Part shown: positions 53,009 to 64,000 of the stretch, in pieces
How positions within the stretch are numbered: the first letter of the stretch is position 1
Layout: each line of letters starts with the position of its first letter
Assembly (NCBI RefSeq): GCF_003382365.1
Contig: NZ_QTSU01000001.1
Span: forward strand, 1,054,001 to 1,118,000
From: Lysobacter silvisoli
GTDB taxonomy: Bacteria; Pseudomonadota; Gammaproteobacteria; Xanthomonadales; Xanthomonadaceae
Direction: 5' to 3'
Length of the DNA: 64,000 bases
Translations under genes and position numbers: made by a program
The notes under the pieces: model-generated
Seen by the model: only the letters and a program-made list of their open reading frames with translations
What the model was told of the DNA's origin: nothing
The model's database searches: none

Positions 53009-53871
53009 GCTTCCTTTCTCGTCTGTGCACGATGGTTGTTCGTGTAACTAATGCGGAGGTATTCCTCACCTCCGGCTTCCGGATCATAGCTGCACATCGA
53101 TCGAAAAATGTGACAAATGCCCGGCTTTTGCTTTTAAACGATCTAAGAGCAGATCTGAGGACATCGCCGCGCCGATTCATTTTTTATCGACGAAGCGACA
53201 AGCGCTTCCATGCAGTTTTCATCCTCTTGCAATGTGCTCAAGTCAAAGTAACGTTGCGTTGACAGTTTGCAGGACACTCTGCTATGAGTGTCCTCGGGGA
53301 TGAGTATCGACACTTTGTGCTTGCGCTACTGCAAGCGTTTTCATCGTCGTCGTCGGTACTCACAAACCGCAACGTAGGGATACCGTTGTGTGCGCCGCAT
53401 GTGTGTATTTTCACGCGTGCCTTGAAGGATCGAGTAGTGGGCGGCCATGTCTGAAGAAGTGTTTTCTCCGGTTCACCGGAATTTTCGGCTTTTCGTTGAT
53501 CCACCCGTAAAAGCTTCCAACTCCGCGTTGGAAACTGCCGTCGATGTTGGCTTGTTGCCCATCGACCCTGTAAGCGAGTGCGAGTTCCGAAGGCCGCTCG
53601 ATGCGTTAGGCATCGTCGTAGGCGACATGCGGCTGCATAACGGCAAGCGAAAGCGCGCTACCGCTACGGCTTCGCGCGCAGCACCCTTGCGCGATCGGAA
53701 CCGATCCGGACGCAGTCGCGGCGCTTGGCCGGAGTTCGGATTGTTTCGCGTCCTACGTCAGCGACGAAGCGGGAGCTGACGCAGCGCTAGACGATTAGGC
53801 GTATCGGAGCAGATCCGGTACTGCCGGAACCACGCAGGATGCACGCACTCTACAGGGAAGTAGCAACGCGC
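53009..53871. promoter_or_regulatory. 863-bp structured intergenic region before the PKS
   Basis: This gap has lower GC than the flanks and no credible gene. It contains three clean dyads: CGGAGGT/ACCTCCG at 53054-53074, AGGACACTC/GAGTGTCCT at 53271-53294 (9 bp, 6-nt loop) and GCTTGC/GCAAGC at 53319-53336. None has a T-run. It must hold the divergent promoters of the phosphopantetheinyl transferase and the PKS, and is long enough for several regulator sites. Confidence 0.6.
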
Positions 53872-56800
53872 ATGAAAGCACCGGGCAAGGCTCCAGCGAT
53901 GCGTCACGCGTCGCCGAAAATCTCCGCCTCCGACTTGCAATCCGCCCAGCTGCCGGCCGATGCCGAGCGCCTGGCCACGGCTATCGTGGCGGCCCAGGTG
54001 CGTGCGTTGTTCGCCGACGCGCAGGGCGAGTACGCGCCGGGCGAACGCCGGGCCACGCTGCGTCCCGCGCACGGCCGCTGGCTGGATGCGCTGCTAGGCC
54101 ATCTTCAGGCGCACCAGCTCATCGCCTCCGATCCGCTCACGGGTCGTTGCCGCTTTCTCATAGACGAAAGCCTCGAGGCGCTGTGGCCGCGCTGGGACGC
54201 GGCGATGCCGGGCTGGTGCGAGAACGCCAACCATCGCGCCTATCTCACCCTGATCGAAGCCTGCCTGCGCCGGCTGACCGACGTCCTGACCGGCGCGCTG
54301 CCCGCCACCGACGTGGTGTTTCCCGATTCGTCGATGCACTTGGTCGAGGGCATCTACAAGCACAACCTGATCGCCGATCACTTCAATCGAGTGCTCGGCG
54401 ATACCCTGCGCGCGGAATTCGCCGCCAAGGCCGAGCGCGGCGAGCGAGGCCTGCGTCTGCTTGAAATCGGCGCCGGCACCGGCGGCACCACCGCGGGGCT
54501 GCTGCCGATGCTGCGCGGTTTCGGCGACCTGGTCGAAGAGTATTGCTACACCGACCTGTCCAAGGCCTTCCTGCTGCACGCGCAGGAAGTCTACGAGCCC
54601 GAGTTTCCGGCGCTGCGCACCGCGATCTTCGATGTCGGCAAGCCGCTAGCGCGGCAGTCGGTCGAGGGCGACCGTTACGACGCGGTGATCGCGACCAACG
54701 TGCTGCACGCCACTACCGACATGCGCGAGACCGTGCGCAACGCCAAAGCGCTGCTCAAGCGCGGCGGTCTGCTGCTGGTCAACGAACTGTGCGCGTGGTC
54801 GTGGCAGACCCATTTCACCTTCGGCCTGCTCGATGGCTGGTGGCTGCACGAGGACCGGAGGCTGCGCCTGCCCGGCAGCCCCTGCCTGTCCCCAACGCAG
54901 TGGACATCGCTGCTGAAGGCCGAGCGCTTCCTCGACATCCGTTTTCCGGCCGACGTGGATCATGGGCTGGGTCAGTTGGTCCTGGCGGCCAGAAGCGACG
55001 GCGTAGTCCGCCAGCGCTTACTGCCGTCGGCCGCGCCCGGCGTTGCAGCGCCCGAGGCCGCGTTCGCGACGGAGACGTCAGCGCCAGCTGCGGTATCCGC
55101 CTCGGCCAGCATCTGCCCGCCGTCCGGCGACGCCGCGCTGCGAGCGGCCTGCTCGCTGCTGTTCCGGGAGATGATCGCGGGGGCGCTGCGGATGGCCCCT
55201 GGTGAGATCGAGACCCATAAGCCCCTGGAGCACTACGGGCTGGACAGCATCCTGGTCGTGCAGCTGACCACGCATTTCCGCAAGCTGTTTCCGGACACGC
55301 GCAGCACCCTGTTTTTCGAAGTGCACAGCGTCGACGGCCTGGTCGACTATTTCCTTGAGCACGACCGGGAAACCGTCGTGCGCGCGGCCTCCGCGCATGC
55401 GGCTGCGGTATCGGCCTCCGCCGCGGCCGCGCCCGGATCGACGCGGTCGCCGGCCGTGTCTGCGCCTGCCGCGCGCGCGCCGGGCAAAGCGCTGGACCGC
55501 TCCGGTCGCCAGCGGCCGGCACCGCGTGGTGACGTATCGCCGGTGCGGCCGGCAGCGGACGCTACGGCTTCCGTCGATGCGCCAGCGCAGCGTGCGGCGC
55601 GCTTCGATGTCGCCATCATCGGCGTCAGCGGCCGCTATCCGCAGGCGCCCGATCTGGATTCGTTCTGGGACAACCTGGCGTCCGGGCGCAGTTGCGCGAG
55701 CGAAATCCCGGCCGACCGTTGGCGCTGGCAGGACTATTACGACGCCGAGCAGGGCAAAGCCGGAAAGATCAACACCCGCTGGGGCGGTTTTCTCGACGAG
55801 ATCGACAAGTTCGATCCGCTGTTCTTCCGGATCGCGCCCAAGGAGGCGAAGAAGATCGACCCGCAGGAACGCCTGTTCCTGGAAACCAGCTATCACGCGA
55901 TCGAGGACAGCGGCTACACGCCCGCGACGCTCGCGCCGGGCGGCAAGGTCGGCGTGTTCGTCGGCGTCATGAACTCGCGCTACACCGTGCAGCCCTTGTA
56001 CTACTCGGTCGCCAACCGGGTCTCGTTCCTGTTCGACTTCTCCGGTCCTTCCTTCGCGGTCGACAGCGCCTGCTCCTCCTCGCTCACCGCGATCCATCTG
56101 GCCCTGGACAGCCTGTACGGCGGCATGTGCGAGGCCGCGATCGCCGGTGGCGTGAGCCTGATCGTCGATCCGCAGCACATGCAGGAACTCACCGCCCTGG
56201 GAATGTTGTCGCAAGGCGCGCAGTGCCGCTCCTTCGGCCGCAATGCCGACGGATTCGTCGATGCCGAAGGCGTGGGTGCGGTGGTGCTCAAGCCGCTGGA
56301 TCATGCCCTGCGCGACGGCGATACCGTTTACGCGGTGATCAGGGGCAGCGCGCTGAACGCCGGCGGCCGTACCCACGGCTACACGGTGCCCAACCCGGTG
56401 GCGCAGGCCGAGGTGGTGTCGTCCGCGTTGGCCCGCGCCAACGTCGATTCCGCCGAAGTGAGCTACATCGAGGCCCACGGCACGGGCACCGCGCTGGGCG
56501 ATCCGATCGAAGTCGCCGGCCTGACCAAGGCGTTCCGTGCCAGCCGCCGCACGCCGGCCGAAGCCGGCGCGCAAGCTCAGCACTGCGCCATCGGCTCGCT
56601 GAAATCCAACATCGGCCACTGCGAGTCGGCTGCCGGCATCGCGGCCCTGACCAAGGTGTTGCTGCAGTTCCGGCACGGGCAGCTGGTGCCCACCCTGCAC
56701 GCGGACGAGGTCAACGACGAGATCGATTTCTCGAAGACGCCGTTCCGCCTGCAGCGTTCCCTGCAGCCGTGGCTGCGGCCGGTGCTGGGCGAGGCCGCTG

Positions 56801-59800
56801 CTGCGCGCGAGGTGCCGCGCATCGCCGGCATCTCGTCCTTCGGCGCCGGCGGTGCCAACGCGCATCTGGTGCTGCAGGAGCCGCTGTCGTTGGCGGCCGA
56901 CGCCGATGGCTCTTCACAAGACGAGGGCCACCGCGCCTACGTGCTGCCCTTGTCGGCGCGCACCCCTGAGCAGTTGCAGCGGAAGATCGAGCGCCTGCTG
57001 GGCTTTCTGCAGCGCGATGCCGCCGGCGCCGCCCTGCGCGACATCGCCTATACCCTGCAGGTCGGGCGCGAGGCGATGGACGAACGCGTCGCCTTCGTAG
57101 CCACGTCGTTGGACGATCTGCGATGTCAACTGCAGGCGCTGTCGGACACCGCGCATCCTGGTCCCGGCGAGTATCGGGGCAGTGTGCGCAAGCACAAGGA
57201 ATTCCTCTCCGTCTGCAATGGCGATCCGGCCTTCAGCGCACGCCGCGATGGCTGGCTGATCGAGCGGGATCTGGCGCGGATCTCGGAGCACTGGGTCAAG
57301 GGCGTCGAGATCGACTGGGTGCGGCTGCATGCCGGTACCCGCCCCCGGCGCATCCGTCTGCCGGCCTATCCCTTCGCACGCGATCGTCACTGGATCGAGC
57401 CGCAACGCACGCTGGGCGACGCCCGGACGGCGGCAACGGCGCATCCGCTGCTGCAGCGGAACACTTCGACCTTGCGCGGCCCGGCCTACAGCGTCGGCTT
57501 GAACGGCGATGAGCGCTTCCTGCTGCAGGACGCGGCCGGCGGGCGCCGCTTGCCGGCGCTACTGTGCCTGGAAATGGCGCACGCGGCGATCGCGGCGGCG
57601 TATCCCCACGAGCTCGCCACACGCGAACTGCGCTTCGAGCACGTGGTTGCCGACGATGCGATCCTGGTCGACGAAGGCTGCGAGCTGCACATTGCGCTGC
57701 TGCCCGGCACCGACGAGGCCCTGGGCTTCGAGATCTACACGACCCGGGGCGGTCTCGAACGCGTGCATTGCCAAGGCCGTGCTTCGTTCACCGCGCAGGA
57801 CGCGCAGGGCAGGGCGGATGTGGCCGCCTTGGCCGCAGGCCTCGCTCGTGGCGCTCCGATCAATGCCGTCCACGACCGGCTGGCGACGCTCGGCCTGCAT
57901 GGCCTGCGCGCTCAGCGCCTCGCGCGTATGGGCCACGAGGTAGTGCTGGAGTTCGCCGCCGACACCGCCGGCACCGACCCATGGACGTTCCCTCCCGACG
58001 TGCTCGCATCCGTGCCGTCCGCCGCCGCCTGGCTGCTGGACGAGCTCGGGCTGACGCCCTCCGTACCGTCCGAGGTTGCGCTGCGCGCGGTGCAGAGCGC
58101 ACGCCTGCGCTCCGACAGCGACCGTCCGGTCTATGTGGTCCTAGGCCTTCGAGATGACCGTTCCGGGCGCTTTGACCTGGCGCTGTACGACGCGCAAGGC
58201 AAACCCTGCCTACGCGCCGACGGCCTGCATCTGGAGTGGACGCGCGCGTTCGAGGACGCGTCCATTTTGCCGGCCGACCGGGGCGATGCAGCTAGGAACG
58301 GCCCGATCCAGGCCGCCGCGGCCGCTCCTGCCGAAACCGCCGCGTCGACGCCGGCCTTGTCCGCGACCGGCACGCGCATCGTCTTCCTGCCGACCGCCGT
58401 GTCCTCGGAAACGCAGGTGCGCGTTGGCGCGGTCACGGCCAAGCCCAGTGCGATGCGCTTGCGCGAGGTTGACGAACTCGATGCGGCGCCGGCGCCGCGC
58501 TCCCTCGGCGCATCCGCGATCGCGCTGTCATCGCCGGATGCCGAGCCGCTGGCGGATGCGCCACCGGCCAGCGTCGAATTGCGCGGACATGGCAGCGGCG
58601 TGTTCTCCATTGTCCTGTTGCAGCCCGAGCTGGATCGCGTCGTCGTCGCGCAATCGCTGCTGGCGCTGGAGCACCTGCGCGAACGCGAAGACACCCGCCT
58701 GGTGCTGTTGGTCGGCCCCCAAGCCGATCTCCTGCACGGCAGCCCGGAAGCGCTCGATGACGACGTCGCGGCCGCGCTGTATCGCGCTGTCGTCGACTTC
58801 CCGCTGCCGACCGTCGCGGTGCTCGCGGGCGGCGCCGACGGCCCCGGCTTCCTGCTGGGCGCGCTGTGCGATTTCATGGTCTGCGCGAACGAATCGCGCT
58901 ACGGCTATGCCGGCACCCAGCGCGCTGTGCCAGTCACGGCGGCGGAGGCTGCATTGCTGGCGGCCCGCTTCGGCGATGCCTGGGCGGAGGATCTGATCTA
59001 TGTCAGCGGCGCTCAGAGAGGGCGTGAGCTGGCGCAGAAGGGCTGGACCGTTCCTGTCGTCGCGCGCGAAGGCGCCATGGCCGCGGCCTTGGCGCTGGCC
59101 GGGTCCATTGCGACCAAGCCACGGGATTCGCTGCACCTGCTGAAGGCGCACCTGTCCTTCGCGCTGCGCGAGGGCGTGTCGCGTCTGGGTTCGCGCGATG
59201 AGTCCGCCGCGGATGCATCCGACGCGCCGCCGTCCGCGACGGTGCCCGTCGTACTGCCGCAGGCGCGGTCCGGAATCGCGATCGAATCCTTGTCCGACAC
59301 GGCCGTTTCTGTGCGCTTGGCCGAAAAAGCCGGGGGCGCCGCCCCGGCCGCCTTGCTGAGCGACTTGCGCGCGACGCTGGCCGAGCTGGCGCAGCATGCC
59401 GGCGCTGCATCGGTCGTGCTGCGCAGCGGCCTGGATGGGTTTCTGCCCGCCATAGGCGACGCTGCCGAGGCGCGGCGGGTCGATGCGGAGCTGGCGGCGC
59501 TGCAGCAGGCTTTATGCGAGCACCCGGCGCCGGTGGTGGTCGCCTTCGAAGGCGATGCCGATGGCGCCGGCTGGTTGCTGGGCTTGAGCGCGGACGCCTG
59601 CGTCCACGCAGAGCGCGCGCGCTATTCGACCGATGCGCTTTGGCACGATCCATCGCTGTTGCGACGTGGGGCAGCGCTGTTAACCCATCGCCTGGGCGCC
59701 AATCGCGCGAAGCGTTGCCTGCTGGAACCGGCGGCGATCGCCGGGGCCGAACTGGCGTCCGCGGGCGCGATCGTGCGCAGCGATGCGGCCGACGTGCTGG

Positions 59801-62800
59801 CGCATGCGTTGGCGCTGGCGGGCGCCTTTCCGCTGCGCGCATCCGCGCTGCGCGCGCGCCGTCGAGCCGCCGTGTCGGCCCGGCTGGCAGAGCCTTCGAC
59901 GGTATCGGCCACGAACGATGCCAGCCCGGTGGCGGCGCGGCGGCCCCTGCCGGAATTTCCCGCCATCGAGACCGAACTGCGCGGCAACGGCGTGCTGCTC
60001 GTGCGCATGGTCGATCGCGAGGCGAAGAACATGTTCTCGCCCGCGCTGGTCCGCGGGCTGGAGCAGGTGTTCGCCCACATCGATGCGTCGGGCGATTACC
60101 GCGCTGTCGTGCTTTGCGGCTACGACACCTATTTCTCCTGCGGCGGCACCCGCGACAGCCTGCTGGCGATCCAGCAGGGCAGCGCCAAGTTCACCGACAC
60201 CAAGATCTACCAGCTGCCGATGAGCTGCAGCGTGCCGGTCGTCGCCGCCATGCAGGGACACGCGATCGGTGGCGGCTGGACCTTGGGCATGTTCGCCGAC
60301 CTGTGCGTGTTCAGCGCCGAAAGCCGCTACATCAGCCCGTACATGCAGTACGGATTCACGCCGGGTGCGGGCTCGACGCTGATCTTCCCGGCCACGCTCG
60401 GCCCCGACCTCGCCAGAGAGACCCTGTTCGCCGCCGTCGAGTACAGCGGCAGCGAATTGCGCGCCAAGGGGCTGCCGCACGCCTGCCTTCCGCGCGAGCA
60501 GGTGTTGCCGCATGCGCTGGCTCTGGCGGACGCGATCGCGGCGCGTGCGCCCGCGGACGTGCGCTGGCTGAAGCGGTATTTCGCCGACCCGGGCCTGGCC
60601 GCGGTCGAGGACACGTATGCGCACGAACTGGCCATGCACGCGCAAAGTTTCGTCGGCAAGGAACACGCGCTGCTGGGCGTGATCCGGCATTTCCAGACCG
60701 AAGAACGCATCGTGCCAGTGTCGGCCGCGACGCAGGATGCCGCGGCGCCGCAGGACATCGCGCAGGCCCTGAAGGACCTGCTCGCGACCGAGCTGCAGAT
60801 GGACGCGGGCCAGATCGACGAGGACACGCAGTTCGTCGACCTGGGCCTGGATTCGATCACCGGGGTGACCTGGGTCCGCAAGATCAACGCCGCCTACGGC
60901 ACCCGGATCGAAGCGACCAAGGTCTATAGCCACCCGACGCTGCGCCGGTTCTGCGACTTCGTCGTCGAGCGCATCGCGCTGCCGGGCGTGGCACGGGCGC
61001 AGGCCGCGGCGGCGCCGACTGAGATGCCGGCGCCGACCGAGGCGAACCAAGCCGTCGCGACGGAGACCTCGGCCACGGAAGCCGAGCTGTCCGCCGCGCT
61101 CCGGCACCTGCTGGCGCAGGAACTGCACATGCCGGAAGAGGAGGTCGATGCGCACCGGCAATTCGTCGACCTTGGTCTGGATTCGATCACCGGGGTGACC
61201 TGGGTCCGCAGGATCAATGCGGCCTACGGCACCCGCATCGAAGCGACCAAGGTCTACAGCCATCCGACCCTGGCCGAGTTCGTGCGCTTTCTCGCCGGCC
61301 TGCTGCCGGCGCGTCCGACCCCGCCACGGCCGTCCGCTGCGCCGGCCGCCGCCGTCGATGCCAGACCGCTTATCGGACCCGCGCGTCCGGCCGGACGCTC
61401 GGCCCGCAGCCTGGTCTCGTGGCGCAACCAGGGCGCACGGCCGGTCAAGGGCGGCGACGCCATCGCCATCATCGGCGTGGCTGGCCAGTTCCCGCGCGCC
61501 GGCGACCTCGATGCGTTCTGGCACAACATCGCCAGCGGCAAGGACTGCATCGACACCGTGCCGCCGCAGCGCTGGGATATCGAACGCTACTTCAGCCAGG
61601 ACATCTCGGTGCCCGGCACCACCAACAGCCGCTGGATGGGCGTGTTGGAGGACTGCGATGCGTTCGATCCGTTGTTCTTCAACATCTCGCCGACCGAGGC
61701 CGAGAGCATGGACCCGCAGCAGCGGCTGATGCTGCAGAACTGCTGGCATGCGGTAGAGAACGCCGCGATCGACCCGCGCCGCCTGTCGGGCAGCCGCTGC
61801 GGCGTGTTCATCGGCTGCGGCGCGACCGACTACCACCAGCGTTCGCGCGAGCACCAGGTCAGCAGCCAGGGTTTCACCGGCGCGGCGATGTCGATCCTGG
61901 CCGCGCGCATCGCCTACTTCCTCAACCTGCAGGGGCCGTGCCTGTCGATCGACACCGCATGCTCGTCCTCGCTGGTCGCGATCGCCAACGCCTGCGACAG
62001 CCTGGCCGCGGACAACTGCGACTTGGCGCTGGCCGGCGGCGTGGCGGTGATGGCCGGCCCGAGCATGCACGTCAAGACCGGCCAATCCGGCATGCTCTCG
62101 GCCGACGGCCGATGTTATGCCTTCGATTATCGTGCCAACGGCTTCGTGCCCGGCGAAGGCGTGGGAGCGCTGATGCTCAAGCGCCTGGCCGACGCCGAGC
62201 GCGACGGCGACATCGTCCACGCCGTGATCCGCGGCTGGGGCGTCAACCAGGACGGCAAGACCAACGGCATCACCGCACCGAACCCGGTATCGCAGACGCG
62301 CCTGATGCGCTCCGTCTACGACCGCTTCGGGATCGATCCCGAAGACATCCAGCTGATCGAAGCCCACGGCACCGGCACCAAGCTGGGCGACCCGATCGAA
62401 GTCGAGGGCCTGACCCAGGCCTTCCGCCACTACACCGACAAGACCGGCTACTGCGCCCTGGGCTCGGTCAAGGGCAACATCGGCCACACCCTCTATGCGG
62501 CCGGCGTGGCCGGCGCGCTCAAGCTGGTGCTGGCGTTGAAGCACCGTCAGCTTCCGCCGGCGGCGAGCTTCGAACGCCTCAATCCGCACATCGATCTGTC
62601 CGACAGCCCGTTCGTGGTCAACACCGCGCTGAAACCCTGGCCCGAGAACGCCAAGGGTGGACGTTCGGCCGTGGTCAGCTCCTTCGGCTTCAGCGGCACC
62701 AATGCGCACCTGGTGCTGGAAGCGGCGCCGGTGCGGGATACGACCGCGGCGGCGGGACGCGATGTCGCCCCGGCGGGTCCGGCGCTGATTCCGTTGTCGG

Positions 62801-64000
62801 CCAGAACTCCCGAGCAGCTGCGGCAACGCGCGCAGTCGCTGGCGGAGGCGCTGGCGCAGGGACTCGCGGCGCGCGTCGGCGACGATGCGCCCTCGCTGCA
62901 CGACGTCGCCTACACGTTGCAGGCAGGCAGGGAGGCGATGGAAGAGCGCTGCGCGCTGGTCGCCCATACGCTGGACGAGCTCGAGGCACGTCTGCGCGCG
63001 TTCGCCGCCGAGCGAGCGCCCGCGGATATATACGTGGGCAGCAGCCTGTCGCGTGGCGGCAAGCTGGCCTTCATCGGACAGGACGCCGAGCTGAAAGCGG
63101 CGCTGATCGACACCTGTCTGCGCGACGGAAAACTCGACAAGCTCGCCGAACTGTGGGTCGACGGCGTCGATTTGCCGTGGGCGAAACTCTATCCGGCGCA
63201 AGACGACCGTGGTCCGCGGCGCGTCGAACTCCCGCTGTATCCGTTCGCGCGGGAGCGCTACTGGCTGGAAGAGGACGCCACGTCCCCGGCACAGCGCACG
63301 GAGGCAGCGGCAGCGGCGATCCACCCGCTGCTGCACGTCAATGCGTCGACCCTGCGCCAACAGCGCTATCGCTCCACGTTCGACGGCAGCGAGGATTTCC
63401 TGCGCGACCATCGCGTGCGTTTCGGCGAGGGACGGGTCGCGCATGTGCTTCCCGGGGTCGCGTATCTGGAGATGGCGGCCGCGGCGATCGCCGATGCACT
63501 GCCGGATGCCTTCGCGGATGCCGCTTCCGGTCTCGCCGCGTCGTCGATGGGGTCGCAGGCGCGCCTGGCGCTACGCGACGTGGTCTGGTGGCAGCCGATC
63601 TTGGTCGACGGACCGGCGACCGTCGAGATCGAGCTGGGCATCGATGACGATGGCGCGATCGCCTTCGCGGTCGTCAGCGGTTCGGGCGACGATCGCATCC
63701 TGCACTGCCAGGGCGAAGCGGACTTCGTCGATTCGGCTGGAGAGCGCATGGCGGACGCCGGGCTGCTGGCATCGGCTCAGCGCGGCGATCGATGGAGCGG
63801 CGACGAGGTCTACGTCGCTTTCGCCCAGATGGGCCTGCATTACGGCCCCTCGCATCGCGGCATCCGCGCGATCTCCCGGGTGGGCGGAAAGCTGGTAGCG
63901 GAACTCGCGCTGGCGACCACGGCTGGCGACGCCTACCGCATGCCGCCGGGGATCATGGACTCCGCGCTGCAGGCGTGCATCGGCTTCCTGCCGTCGCTGC
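53872..64000 (+). CDS. trans-AT polyketide synthase, partial at right edge
   Basis: One frame is open from ATG 53872 (or 53839, in frame) to the window end: 3,376 codons. Visible domains by residue: cMT about 60-420 (SAM motif LEIGAGTGGTT at 197); ACP1 about 425-495 (GLDSI, Ser459, no beta-branch Trp); KS1 about 578-1005 (Cys734, His869, His916 intact); linker without AT; degenerate DH about 1180-1440 (catalytic His lost near 1221); crotonase A about 1566-1763; crotonase B about 1804-1996; crotonase C about 2024-2280 (PksI/ECH2-like GHAIGGGWTLGMFADL, intact); ACP2 (Ser2328, Trp2334) and ACP3 (Ser2438, Trp2444), both DSITGVTW; KS2 about 2528-2953 (Cys2697, His2832, His2872); DH2 from 3151 (His3180, MDSALQA Asp3363), cut by the edge. 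Absence of AT in both KS modules indicates trans-AT loading. AGGGAAG lies 12 nt before the ATG. No frameshift was found. The protein presumably acts in the cytosol in a multi-protein assembly line whose other parts lie to the right. Confidence 0.95.
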   Translation, partial: MKAPGKAPAMRHASPKISASDLQSAQLPADAERLATAIVAAQVRALFADAQGEYAPGERRATLRPAHGRWLDALLGHLQAHQLIASDPLTGRCRFLIDESLEALWPRWDAAMPGWCENANHRAYLTLIEACLRRLTDVLTGALPATDVVFPDSSMHLVEGIYKHNLIADHFNRVLGDTLRAEFAAKAERGERGLRLLEIGAGTGGTTAGLLPMLRGFGDLVEEYCYTDLSKAFLLHAQEVYEPEFPALRTAIFDVGKPLARQSVEGDRYDAVIATNVLHATTDMRETVRNAKALLKRGGLLLVNELCAWSWQTHFTFGLLDGWWLHEDRRLRLPGSPCLSPTQWTSLLKAERFLDIRFPADVDHGLGQLVLAARSDGVVRQRLLPSAAPGVAAPEAAFATETSAPAAVSASASICPPSGDAALRAACSLLFREMIAGALRMAPGEIETHKPLEHYGLDSILVVQLTTHFRKLFPDTRSTLFFEVHSVDGLVDYFLEHDRETVVRAASAHAAAVSASAAAAPGSTRSPAVSAPAARAPGKALDRSGRQRPAPRGDVSPVRPAADATASVDAPAQRAARFDVAIIGVSGRYPQAPDLDSFWDNLASGRSCASEIPADRWRWQDYYDAEQGKAGKINTRWGGFLDEIDKFDPLFFRIAPKEAKKIDPQERLFLETSYHAIEDSGYTPATLAPGGKVGVFVGVMNSRYTVQPLYYSVANRVSFLFDFSGPSFAVDSACSSSLTAIHLALDSLYGGMCEAAIAGGVSLIVDPQHMQELTALGMLSQGAQCRSFGRNADGFVDAEGVGAVVLKPLDHALRDGDTVYAVIRGSALNAGGRTHGYTVPNPVAQAEVVSSALARANVDSAEVSYIEAHGTGTALGDPIEVAGLTKAFRASRRTPAEAGAQAQHCAIGSLKSNIGHCESAAGIAALTKVLLQFRHGQLVPTLHADEVNDEIDFSKTPFRLQRSLQPWLRPVLGEAAAAREVPRIAGISSFGAGGANAHLVLQEPLSLAADADGSSQDEGHRAYVLPLSARTPEQLQRKIERLLGFLQRDAAGAALRDIAYTLQVGREAMDERVAFVATSLDDLRCQLQALSDTAHPGPGEYRGSVRKHKEFLSVCNGDPAFSARRDGWLIERDLARISEHWVKGVEIDWVRLHAGTRPRRIRLPAYPFARDRHWIEPQRTLGDARTAATAHPLLQRNTSTLRGPAYSVGLNGDERFLLQDAAGGRRLPALLCLEMAHAAIAAAYPHELATRELRFEHVVADDAILVDEGCELHIALLPGTDEALGFEIYTTRGGLERVHCQGRASFTAQDAQGRADVAALAAGLARGAPINAVHDRLATLGLHGLRAQRLARMGHEVVLEFAADTAGTDPWTFPPDVLASVPSAAAWLLDELGLTPSVPSEVALRAVQSARLRSDSDRPVYVVLGLRDDRSGRFDLALYDAQGKPCLRADGLHLEWTRAFEDASILPADRGDAARNGPIQAAAAAPAETAASTPALSATGTRIVFLPTAVSSETQVRVGAVTAKPSAMRLREVDELDAAPAPRSLGASAIALSSPDAEPLADAPPASVELRGHGSGVFSIVLLQPELDRVVVAQSLLALEHLREREDTRLVLLVGPQADLLHGSPEALDDDVAAALYRAVVDFPLPTVAVLAGGADGPGFLLGALCDFMVCANESRYGYAGTQRAVPVTAAEAALLAARFGDAWAEDLIYVSGAQRGRELAQKGWTVPVVAREGAMAAALALAGSIATKPRDSLHLLKAHLSFALREGVSRLGSRDESAADASDAPPSATVPVVLPQARSGIAIESLSDTAVSVRLAEKAGGAAPAALLSDLRATLAELAQHAGAASVVLRSGLDGFLPAIGDAAEARRVDAELAALQQALCEHPAPVVVAFEGDADGAGWLLGLSADACVHAERARYSTDALWHDPSLLRRGAALLTHRLGANRAKRCLLEPAAIAGAELASAGAIVRSDAADVLAHALALAGAFPLRASALRARRRAAVSARLAEPSTVSATNDASPVAARRPLPEFPAIETELRGNGVLLVRMVDREAKNMFSPALVRGLEQVFAHIDASGDYRAVVLCGYDTYFSCGGTRDSLLAIQQGSAKFTDTKIYQLPMSCSVPVVAAMQGHAIGGGWTLGMFADLCVFSAESRYISPYMQYGFTPGAGSTLIFPATLGPDLARETLFAAVEYSGSELRAKGLPHACLPREQVLPHALALADAIAARAPADVRWLKRYFADPGLAAVEDTYAHELAMHAQSFVGKEHALLGVIRHFQTEERIVPVSAATQDAAAPQDIAQALKDLLATELQMDAGQIDEDTQFVDLGLDSITGVTWVRKINAAYGTRIEATKVYSHPTLRRFCDFVVERIALPGVARAQAAAAPTEMPAPTEANQAVATETSATEAELSAALRHLLAQELHMPEEEVDAHRQFVDLGLDSITGVTWVRRINAAYGTRIEATKVYSHPTLAEFVRFLAGLLPARPTPPRPSAAPAAAVDARPLIGPARPAGRSARSLVSWRNQGARPVKGGDAIAIIGVAGQFPRAGDLDAFWHNIASGKDCIDTVPPQRWDIERYFSQDISVPGTTNSRWMGVLEDCDAFDPLFFNISPTEAESMDPQQRLMLQNCWHAVENAAIDPRRLSGSRCGVFIGCGATDYHQRSREHQVSSQGFTGAAMSILAARIAYFLNLQGPCLSIDTACSSSLVAIANACDSLAADNCDLALAGGVAVMAGPSMHVKTGQSGMLSADGRCYAFDYRANGFVPGEGVGALMLKRLADAERDGDIVHAVIRGWGVNQDGKTNGITAPNPVSQTRLMRSVYDRFGIDPEDIQLIEAHGTGTKLGDPIEVEGLTQAFRHYTDKTGYCALGSVKGNIGHTLYAAGVAGALKLVLALKHRQLPPAASFERLNPHIDLSDSPFVVNTALKPWPENAKGGRSAVVSSFGFSGTNAHLVLEAAPVRDTTAAAGRDVAPAGPALIPLSARTPEQLRQRAQSLAEALAQGLAARVGDDAPSLHDVAYTLQAGREAMEERCALVAHTLDELEARLRAFAAERAPADIYVGSSLSRGGKLAFIGQDAELKAALIDTCLRDGKLDKLAELWVDGVDLPWAKLYPAQDDRGPRRVELPLYPFARERYWLEEDATSPAQRTEAAAAAIHPLLHVNASTLRQQRYRSTFDGSEDFLRDHRVRFGEGRVAHVLPGVAYLEMAAAAIADALPDAFADAASGLAASSMGSQARLALRDVVWWQPILVDGPATVEIELGIDDDGAIAFAVVSGSGDDRILHCQGEADFVDSAGERMADAGLLASAQRGDRWSGDEVYVAFAQMGLHYGPSHRGIRAISRVGGKLVAELALATTAGDAYRMPPGIMDSALQACIGFLPSL
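60832..61272 (+). repeat. near-identical duplicated ACP segments in the PKS
   Basis: The ACP2 segment 60832-60942 and the ACP3 segment 61162-61272 are about 90 percent identical at nucleotide level over 111 bp and offset by exactly 330 bp (110 codons). A stretch across the GLDSITGVTW codons is identical. This reflects a recent in-frame ACP duplication or gene conversion. Confidence 0.85.

Follow-up and report, generated by a model that had tools for sequence, protein, structure and literature searches.

Three tandem crotonase domains in one trans-acyltransferase polyketide synthase module: a recurrent architecture and a candidate single-chain trimer

Introduction

Polyketide synthase (PKS) chains pair into a twofold dimer. 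For embedded enoyl-CoA hydratase (ECH) domains of the decarboxylating ECH2 type it is, to our knowledge, still an open question of structure how a homotrimeric enzyme works inside such a homodimeric assembly line. The question is raised by a stretch of 64,000 nucleotides from Lysobacter silvisoli (G000:C1:1054001-1118000, where G000 is its own genome of 4.54 Mb), here called the window. The last gene of the window (gene A) encodes a trans-acyltransferase (trans-AT) PKS with three successive ECH domains, ECH A, ECH B and ECH C, in a single module. In this study, we relate these domains to solved structures, to their relatives in other genomes and to the beta-branching enzymes of the same cluster. 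We consider it rather probable that the triple is an in-cis decarboxylase, with ECH A and ECH B as dead copies that serve as trimer subunits around ECH C, the three together making a covalent pseudo-trimer.

Three crotonase domains in one module

An earlier reading of the window, made from its letters alone (the sequence-only reading), had reported three successive ECH-like segments between a degenerate dehydratase (DH) and a doublet of acyl carrier proteins (ACPs). All three lie in the reported interval 58562-60715, the ACP doublet is present by Pfam and by motif listing, and the motifs and coordinates quoted in that reading are correct.

53839..63999, continuing to G000:C1:1118404 (404 bases past the window), + strand: trans-AT PKS gene (gene A, last of the window), 3522 aa
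58573..59181 (approximate, from the model's elements), + strand: ECH A, crotonase without catalytic His and without substrate loop
59275..59889 (approximate, from the model's elements), + strand: ECH B, crotonase without catalytic His or substrate loop, its oxyanion-region glycines fewer than in ECH A family-wide
59965..60708 (approximate, from the model's elements), + strand: ECH C, putative ECH2 decarboxylase domain of PksI/CurF type, with catalytic His and oxyanion glycines

PF00378 (ECH_1) matches three separate stretches of the gene A protein and also recognises the segments in isolation, namely ECH A (58462-59271) at 4.5e-15, ECH B (59089-59991) at 1.1e-9 and ECH C (59899-60732) at 8.1e-45. 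The nearest solved structures of all three are PksI or CurF ECH2: the best PDB matches of ECH C are PksI (1.3e-58) and CurF ECH2 (3.1e-45), and CurF ECH2 is nearest to both ECH A (3.9e-17) and ECH B (2e-7). On the NCBIfam profile NF005496 (cut-off 215 bits), ECH C scores 253.6 bits, ECH A 100.3 and ECH B 49.7. Compared profile to profile, 38 ECH B sequences match 18 ECH C sequences with a probability of 99.9 (E 9.2e-32) and ECH A with a probability of 99.8 (E 1.1e-29). The crotonase fold proposed for all three segments was thus borne out, the profiles placing ECH A and ECH B there as well, and so was the likeness of the third to PksI and ECH2, seen in its PDB matches, its NF005496 score above the cut-off and its conserved histidine (83/83, see below).

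Chance similarity or a frame artefact was rejected in view of the open frame of 3522 aa and the three lines of profile evidence. The idea that annotation usually misses ECH B was also dropped: in a sample made up of the window and 37 of the 73 triples at hand, PF00378 at E 0.001 detects 36/38 ECH B and 38/38 ECH A domains.

Catalytic residues kept and lost

Residues were counted in an alignment of 83 triples, the window included, with PksI numbering taken from the alignment of ECH C with PksI. PksI is reported to require His230, not Lys80, and to form its oxyanion hole from the amides of Gly66 and Gly108 (PMC7501309). The His230 site holds histidine in 83/83 ECH C, 1/83 ECH A and 0/83 ECH B, and the KFTD substrate loop (Lys80-Phe81) is a gap in all 83 ECH A and all 83 ECH B sequences. 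ECH C has the crotonase fold, the catalytic His230 and the oxyanion glycines of ECH2 decarboxylases.

At the sites of PksI Gly65, Gly66, Gly107 and Gly109, glycine is found in 78, 40, 76 and 80 of the 83 ECH A sequences and in 7, 1, 49 and 35 of the 83 ECH B sequences; the Gly108 site is mostly alanine in both ECH A (51/83) and ECH C (62/83). In the window the oxyanion region reads GADGPGF in ECH A and GDADGAGW in ECH B. Both upstream copies had been described as lacking the Gly-rich oxyanion segment together with the substrate loop. The loop is indeed missing, but for the glycines the statement holds only in part.

The catalytic pair of ECH1 (Glu137 and Asp68 of PksH) is not the rule in ECH A or ECH B among these triples, and the candidate role of both as ECH1 enzymes was rejected on that ground. 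At the Glu137 site, ECH A has Asp in 34 and Asn in 14 of 83 sequences, with Glu not among the eight commonest residues, and ECH B has Gly in 32 and Glu in 8 of 83. The Asp68 site is Arg in 52/83 ECH A; in ECH B it is Asp in 21 and a gap in 21 of 83. Judged by these residue patterns, ECH C looks like a working decarboxylase, ECH A like a dead yet pocket-like copy and ECH B like the most worn of the three.

Predicted structure and selection

An AlphaFold2 model of A-B-C (725 residues, 1575-2299; the 83 aligned triples as rows; no negative control) has a mean predicted local distance difference test score (pLDDT) of 90.2 and a predicted template modelling score (pTM) of 0.91, and consists of three similar beta/alpha units. 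The pLDDT drops below 50 over at least three residues only at model positions 215-221 and 718-725. Loosely tethered domains usually give far lower pTM, and a value of 0.91 in a three-domain chain points to one fixed predicted arrangement of ECH A, ECH B and ECH C. When the model was matched to PksI with Foldseek, 13 of the 15 chains listed gave a TMt of 0.92-0.97. For the A-C doublet of gene B (G000:C1:1118272-1128000), modelled with 45 rows, pTM is 0.85. By analogy, the predicted packing may be that of the crotonase trimer, because PksH, PksI, VirD and VirE are reported as trimers: PksH and PksI in PMC7501309, where the PksH trimer is called obligatory and buries 17% of each monomer's surface, VirD and, by small-angle X-ray scattering, VirE in PMC10006238.

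Ten pairs among five near orthologues of the window's module give ratios of nonsynonymous to synonymous substitution rates (dN/dS) of 0.27-0.43 for the core of ECH A, 0.23-0.39 for that of ECH B and 0.13-0.25 for that of ECH C. The linkers, whose shortness makes their ratios noisy, range from 0.23 to 1.12 (first) and from 0.38 to 3.12 (second, 22 codons, at least 0.66 in 8/10 pairs). Core ratios of 0.23-0.43 indicate that ECH A and ECH B are maintained by purifying selection, less strictly than ECH C.

A separate observation concerns Steroidobacter gossypii (L028), which, compared with window positions 58561-60735, shows a dS of 0.35 in ECH A, 0.49 in ECH B and 0.85 in ECH C, as would be seen if recombination or gene conversion had replaced ECH C only.

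Distribution and evolutionary history

The triple is no peculiarity of a single module but a recurrent architecture. A scan of GTDB genomes seeded with an eight-sequence triple alignment yielded 78 loci with 83 triples (some truncated where the contig or locus stops), and the order ECH A-B-C holds in 78/78; these loci come from the best 80 of 113 relatives, a selection that favours triples and gives no frequencies. They carry 46 record titles from seven phyla, 26 of the titles with at least two loci. By NCBI names, 22 titles belong to Pseudomonadota, 16 to Bacteroidota, 4 to Acidobacteriota, and one each to Myxococcota, Verrucomicrobiota, Planctomycetota and Fibrobacterota. A quirk confined to the genus was rejected, since the scan finds triples beyond it; within the genus, 5/20 genomes, the window's included, hold full triples (G000, G014, G015, G005 and G006), and of the named relatives in the scan Lysobacter sp. 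ISL-50 (L027) is nearest to the window.

The module is also rare, given that matches at 1e-60 were found in only 4/369 genomes of the class and 2/398 of the phylum, the window's own counted each time. A search of 397 genomes of the order seeded with ECH C (profile built from the C domains of 17 triples and one doublet, at most six candidates scored per genome) found 12 embedded ECH2s in 6 genomes, 9 of them in triples, 2 in doublets and 1 single.

Two further observations concern this distribution. The triple-ECH module is 77-82% identical among the window, L027, L028 and L029, that is, among Lysobacter relatives, Steroidobacter gossypii and Pseudomarimonas arenosa, an identity that suggests cluster transfer between families. 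The planctomycete genome G789 (Planctomycetota OFTM357; L054, L158-L164) has PKS reading frames as long as 14,104 aa, in which nine ECH2-type matches are embedded: three belong to triples, five to A-C doublets and one stands single.

Two trees bear on the origin of the triple. The first has 134 rows; the second has 127 segments (doublets, singles and 32 triples, less than half of those at hand) and omits seven rows of the first, namely both housekeeping ECHs, the ECH1, the doublet A domains of L178, L175 and L180 and the first ECH of L176. The second tree unites the 41 A rows in one clade (SH-aLRT 99), the 32 B rows in another (100) and nine single or discrete ECH2s in a third (95), with the C rows on one side of an unsupported branch. 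In the first tree the two housekeeping ECHs are scattered within A and B; B is otherwise as in the second tree, with one stray housekeeping row. The doublet A domains of L178 (Nostoc) and L175 (G091) fall outside the A group there, and that of L180 (Ensifer) beside a housekeeping row. Doublets from the second modules of the cluster family and from G789 nest among the triples in both A and C of the first tree. The A and B clades and this nesting make it most likely that the triple formed once and that ECH B was later lost in some modules. A recent tandem duplication inside the module was rejected, ECH A and ECH B being separate clades.

The second module of the cluster family is a triple in G014 and a doublet in G000, G015, G703, G777 and G779. 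When doublet linkers were compared with the ECH B of G014, those of G703, G000 and G777 resembled it as a remnant would (0, 4 and 8 of 500 shuffles scored as high), and the same shuffle test found no remnant in those of G015 and G779 (356 and 87 of 500). In the first tree, the doublets of Nostoc, Ensifer and G091 have C domains that fall outside the clade of triple C domains, so the doublet may be the older form. A doublet of another kind, L176/L106 (G216, same class), has a first member of C type (about 140 bits), not A type, which stands alone in the first tree; it is possibly a separate fusion.

Beta-branching cassette and module layout

The cluster holds a complete beta-branching cassette of the HMG-CoA synthase (HMGS) type, comprising HMGS, ECH1, ECH2, a donor ACP and a Cys-less ketosynthase (KS). 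Downstream on the same strand lie the HMGS homologue (G000:C1:1145036-1146352, PF08540/PF01154), a discrete ECH1 (PksH 1.8e-95; NF005498 380 bits, cut-off 250), a discrete ECH2 (PksI 2.1e-96), a Cys-less KS-like protein with GGASASG where DTACSSS is usual (by eye), two stand-alone ATs and a zinc-type dehydrogenase. The donor ACP candidate is a small ACP-like open reading frame, picked out by eye with no profile, in the gap before G000:C1:1148149.

Tandem ACPs with a tryptophan flag (Trp at Ser+6) stand at three sites: in gene A after the triple, in gene B after the doublet, and in gene C (1128060-1140956), where Pfam detects no ECH. An ECHa-ECH2 doublet is the arrangement of the cluster's second module (gene B), not of the triple module, which has two upstream ECHs. 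A simple reading is that the embedded ECH2s finish two branches and the discrete ECH2 the third. An embedded ECH with tandem ACPs and the cassette has been tied to an exomethylene product in PMC8262917 and PMC9600693, the latter of which also predicts one endo-methyl case. Across the 78 loci, at least one flagged ACP follows in 65/81 triple modules with a readable ACP.

Pfam finds one methyltransferase, three ACPs, two KS, two DH stretches and three ECH_1 stretches in the first 3387 residues of gene A, and the triple-ECH module runs KS-DH*-ECH A-ECH B-ECH C-ACP-ACP. Its degenerate DH has LQDAAGGRRLP at the expected HxxxGxxxxP site, a DH motif named in PMC6855096. Pfam coordinates are printed for the later of the two DH stretches and for the second KS; the other features were placed as given below.

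54412..54822 (residues 192-328), + strand: methyltransferase domain of a first, partial module (PF13489, also PF08242)
55168..55272 (core stretch only), + strand: first ACP, Ser470, without Trp flag (PF23297 and motif listing)
55603..56868 (end approximate), + strand: KS of the triple-ECH module, DSACSSS active site at residue 742 (start motif and active site)
57442..58249, + strand: degenerate DH-like region (placed by eye from sequence)
60766..60963 (ends approximate), + strand: ACP 1 of the tandem pair, Ser2339, Trp flag at Ser+6 (SITGVTW; by motif, with three PP-binding stretches in Pfam)
61096..61293, + strand: ACP 2 of the tandem pair, Ser2449, Trp flag at Ser+6 (Pfam and motif listing)
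61459..62571, + strand: KS of the next module (Pfam)

Further downstream, beyond the window, a 3500-aa PKS (G000:C1:1153403-1163902, L011) opens with an ACP-like motif, LPG_synthase_C and Beta_elim_lyase, an unusual starter region.

Discussion

How could three crotonase domains act as one? In the mechanism that we propose, the donor ACP, KS0, HMGS and ECH1 would build the branch on the tandem ACPs with their Trp flags and dehydrate it there; its subsequent decarboxylation, probably to an exo-beta-methylene, would fall to ECH C, presumed active from its residues. Catalytically dead ECH A and ECH B would fill the places of the other two subunits in an obligate crotonase trimer, and A-B-C would fold into a covalent pseudo-trimer, each chain having a single active site. 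Such a fold would resolve the conflict between the threefold symmetry of ECH trimers and the twofold symmetry of PKS dimers: a lone embedded ECH2 would need two further copies to trimerise, whereas a chain of three subunits would need none, and one polyketide chain would be served by a single active site per PKS chain. If this is true, two A-B-C units per PKS dimer would mimic the dimer of trimers of free crotonases. A role as pseudo-subunits would also explain why two copies could lose catalysis although selection kept their folds, and why their order is fixed. The broader claim, that A-B-C is a single-chain crotonase trimer which evolved once, spread together with its clusters to at least seven phyla and reconciles a threefold enzyme with a twofold megasynthase, is one towards which we lean slightly. 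The sequence-only reading had come close with a fused beta-branch module holding two structural or repurposed ECHs. It was right about the ECH2-like last ECH, the catalytic parts lost upstream and the retention of the copies, but its scope was too narrow: the triple recurs well beyond this module, and ECH A and ECH B form separate lineages and are not fresh decaying copies.

Several observations weigh against the pseudo-trimer. It explains less well the existence of doublets and of single embedded ECH2s: A-C doublets without ECH B occur in the second modules of G000 and G015, in G703, G777 and G779, in Nostoc, Ensifer and G091, and five more in the planctomycete G789, and singles exist too, so that neither ECH B nor ECH A is indispensable for embedding an ECH2. 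The oxyanion-region glycines of ECH A exceed the needs of a pure spacer. On the structural side, pTM alone is no proof of a trimer-like interface, the pseudo-threefold geometry having been deduced and not read from coordinates, and two of the 15 PksI chains listed (both 4q1g) align poorly (TMt 0.65-0.66, rmsd 20-23). In the first tree, with the three doublet A domains included, A is not one clean clade, and the dN/dS of the first linker (0.23-1.12) overlaps that of ECH A and ECH B. The Trp flags are not exclusive to the triple either, being carried by 103/136 ACPs after triples and 18/43 other ACPs, in a detection biased by a query that was itself a flagged ACP; and the discrete PksI-like ECH2 of the same cluster could act in trans.

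Some of these points would suit other roles for the upstream copies. ECH A is more conserved than ECH B (mean column identity 47% versus 32%, 38 rows) and keeps its pocket-region glycines, the tandem ACPs follow directly, and VirD and VirE bind the flagged ACP according to PMC10006238, all as would be expected if ECH A and ECH B were dead docking platforms for the tandem ACPs, for the HMGS/ECH1 cassette or for the discrete ECH2 and steered the intermediate to ECH C. Docking does not, however, require the fixed A-B-C packing that is predicted, and we judge it unlikely as the explanation of the triple, though it is compatible with a pseudo-trimer. The glycines of ECH A (Gly65 site 78/83, Gly109 site 80/83) could alternatively reflect another catalytic activity in one or both copies, for example a double-bond shift or an ECH1-like dehydration by ECH A; in pederin-type modules, the labrenzin paper (PMC6855096) interprets the upstream ECH as an ECH1 whose motifs survive in some clusters and are deleted in other clusters. 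We give this little credence, seeing that His230 is nearly absent (1/83 ECH A, 0/83 ECH B), the loop is gapped throughout, the PksH Glu137 and Asp68 sites are mostly substituted, the cluster already has a discrete ECH1, and ECH2 structures rank first for ECH A and ECH B in PDB searches.

That the two copies are decaying duplicates without a role would agree with their faster evolution compared with ECH C and with the loss of ECH B in some modules. Yet their core dN/dS (0.23-0.43 in ten pairs) contrasts with the ratio of at least 0.66 in the second linker in 8/10 pairs and largely refutes free decay, and both copies are kept in 78/78 loci, albeit in a scan that favours triples; we regard mere decay as very improbable.

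What is already known is an embedded ECH2 with an inactive partner, in published doublets. CurF carries a single embedded ECH2. With CurF ECH2 (curacin) and PksI (bacillaene), ECH C agrees in sequence, fold and catalytic His, although PksI is a discrete homotrimer, unlike the embedded ECH C (PMC7501309). Closer in layout are the ECHa-ECHb doublets of exo-beta-methylene modules in lasonolide LasH/LasO and in the third module of the pederin family (for example OnnB), where the ECH immediately before the embedded ECH2 is described as truncated and presumed inactive, with flagged or tandem ACPs (PMC9600693, PMC6855096); compared with these by description only, the window's triple has two dead ECHs instead of one, and its middle ECH B forms a clade of its own. 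Doublets of ECHa-ECH2 type were also read from sequence on Nostoc and Ensifer plasmids (L178, L180). The ECHQ-TE didomain of aurantinin Art21 likewise keeps an atypical ECH in a fused protein, but as one copy joined to a thioesterase, not as an embedded ECH array (PMC11425284). The 'Tandem ECH' KS class of NaPDoS2 (cylindrocyclophane type) also has an ECH within a beta-branching PKS, but it denotes an ECH beside an enoylreductase in cis-AT PKSs, not serial ECHs (PMC9582728).

In the full-text literature searched, whose coverage leaves out key subscription papers including that on cuniculene, no description of the triple-ECH module was found, and the transPACT paper (PMC7930024) does not use 'ECH' in its main text. 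Trans-AT clusters of unknown product are mentioned in a preprint on Lysobacter mining (PMC11451712). As far as searched, the conservation of the triple as a unit in several phyla, the single origin that it appears to have and its reading as a pseudo-trimer are new; whether they are also new in print is uncertain. The cuniculene cluster, a trans-AT PKS, is reported from Aquimarina sp. Aq78, A. muelleri and Flavobacteriaceae RHTr2 (PMC9323603, PMC9860996), and triple-ECH loci occur in all three (L035, L088 and L078/L080). In Aq78, one HMGS match and one tandem-AT locus share a contig, the other two AT matches are weaker and lie elsewhere, and the single embedded ECH2 match is on a different draft contig from the cassette. 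The Aq78 triple may belong to the cuniculene cluster; if triple and cassette are one cluster, the structure of cuniculene would reveal the action of the triple-ECH module.

In conclusion, two dead copies fused to a live one offer a testable answer to the question of the trimer within the dimer. The pseudo-trimer, if true, would explain the truncated 'inactive ECH' upstream of embedded ECH2s in known clusters, and the arrangement of a module as A-B-C, A-C or C alone provides a sequence marker for predicting and re-engineering beta-branching modules.

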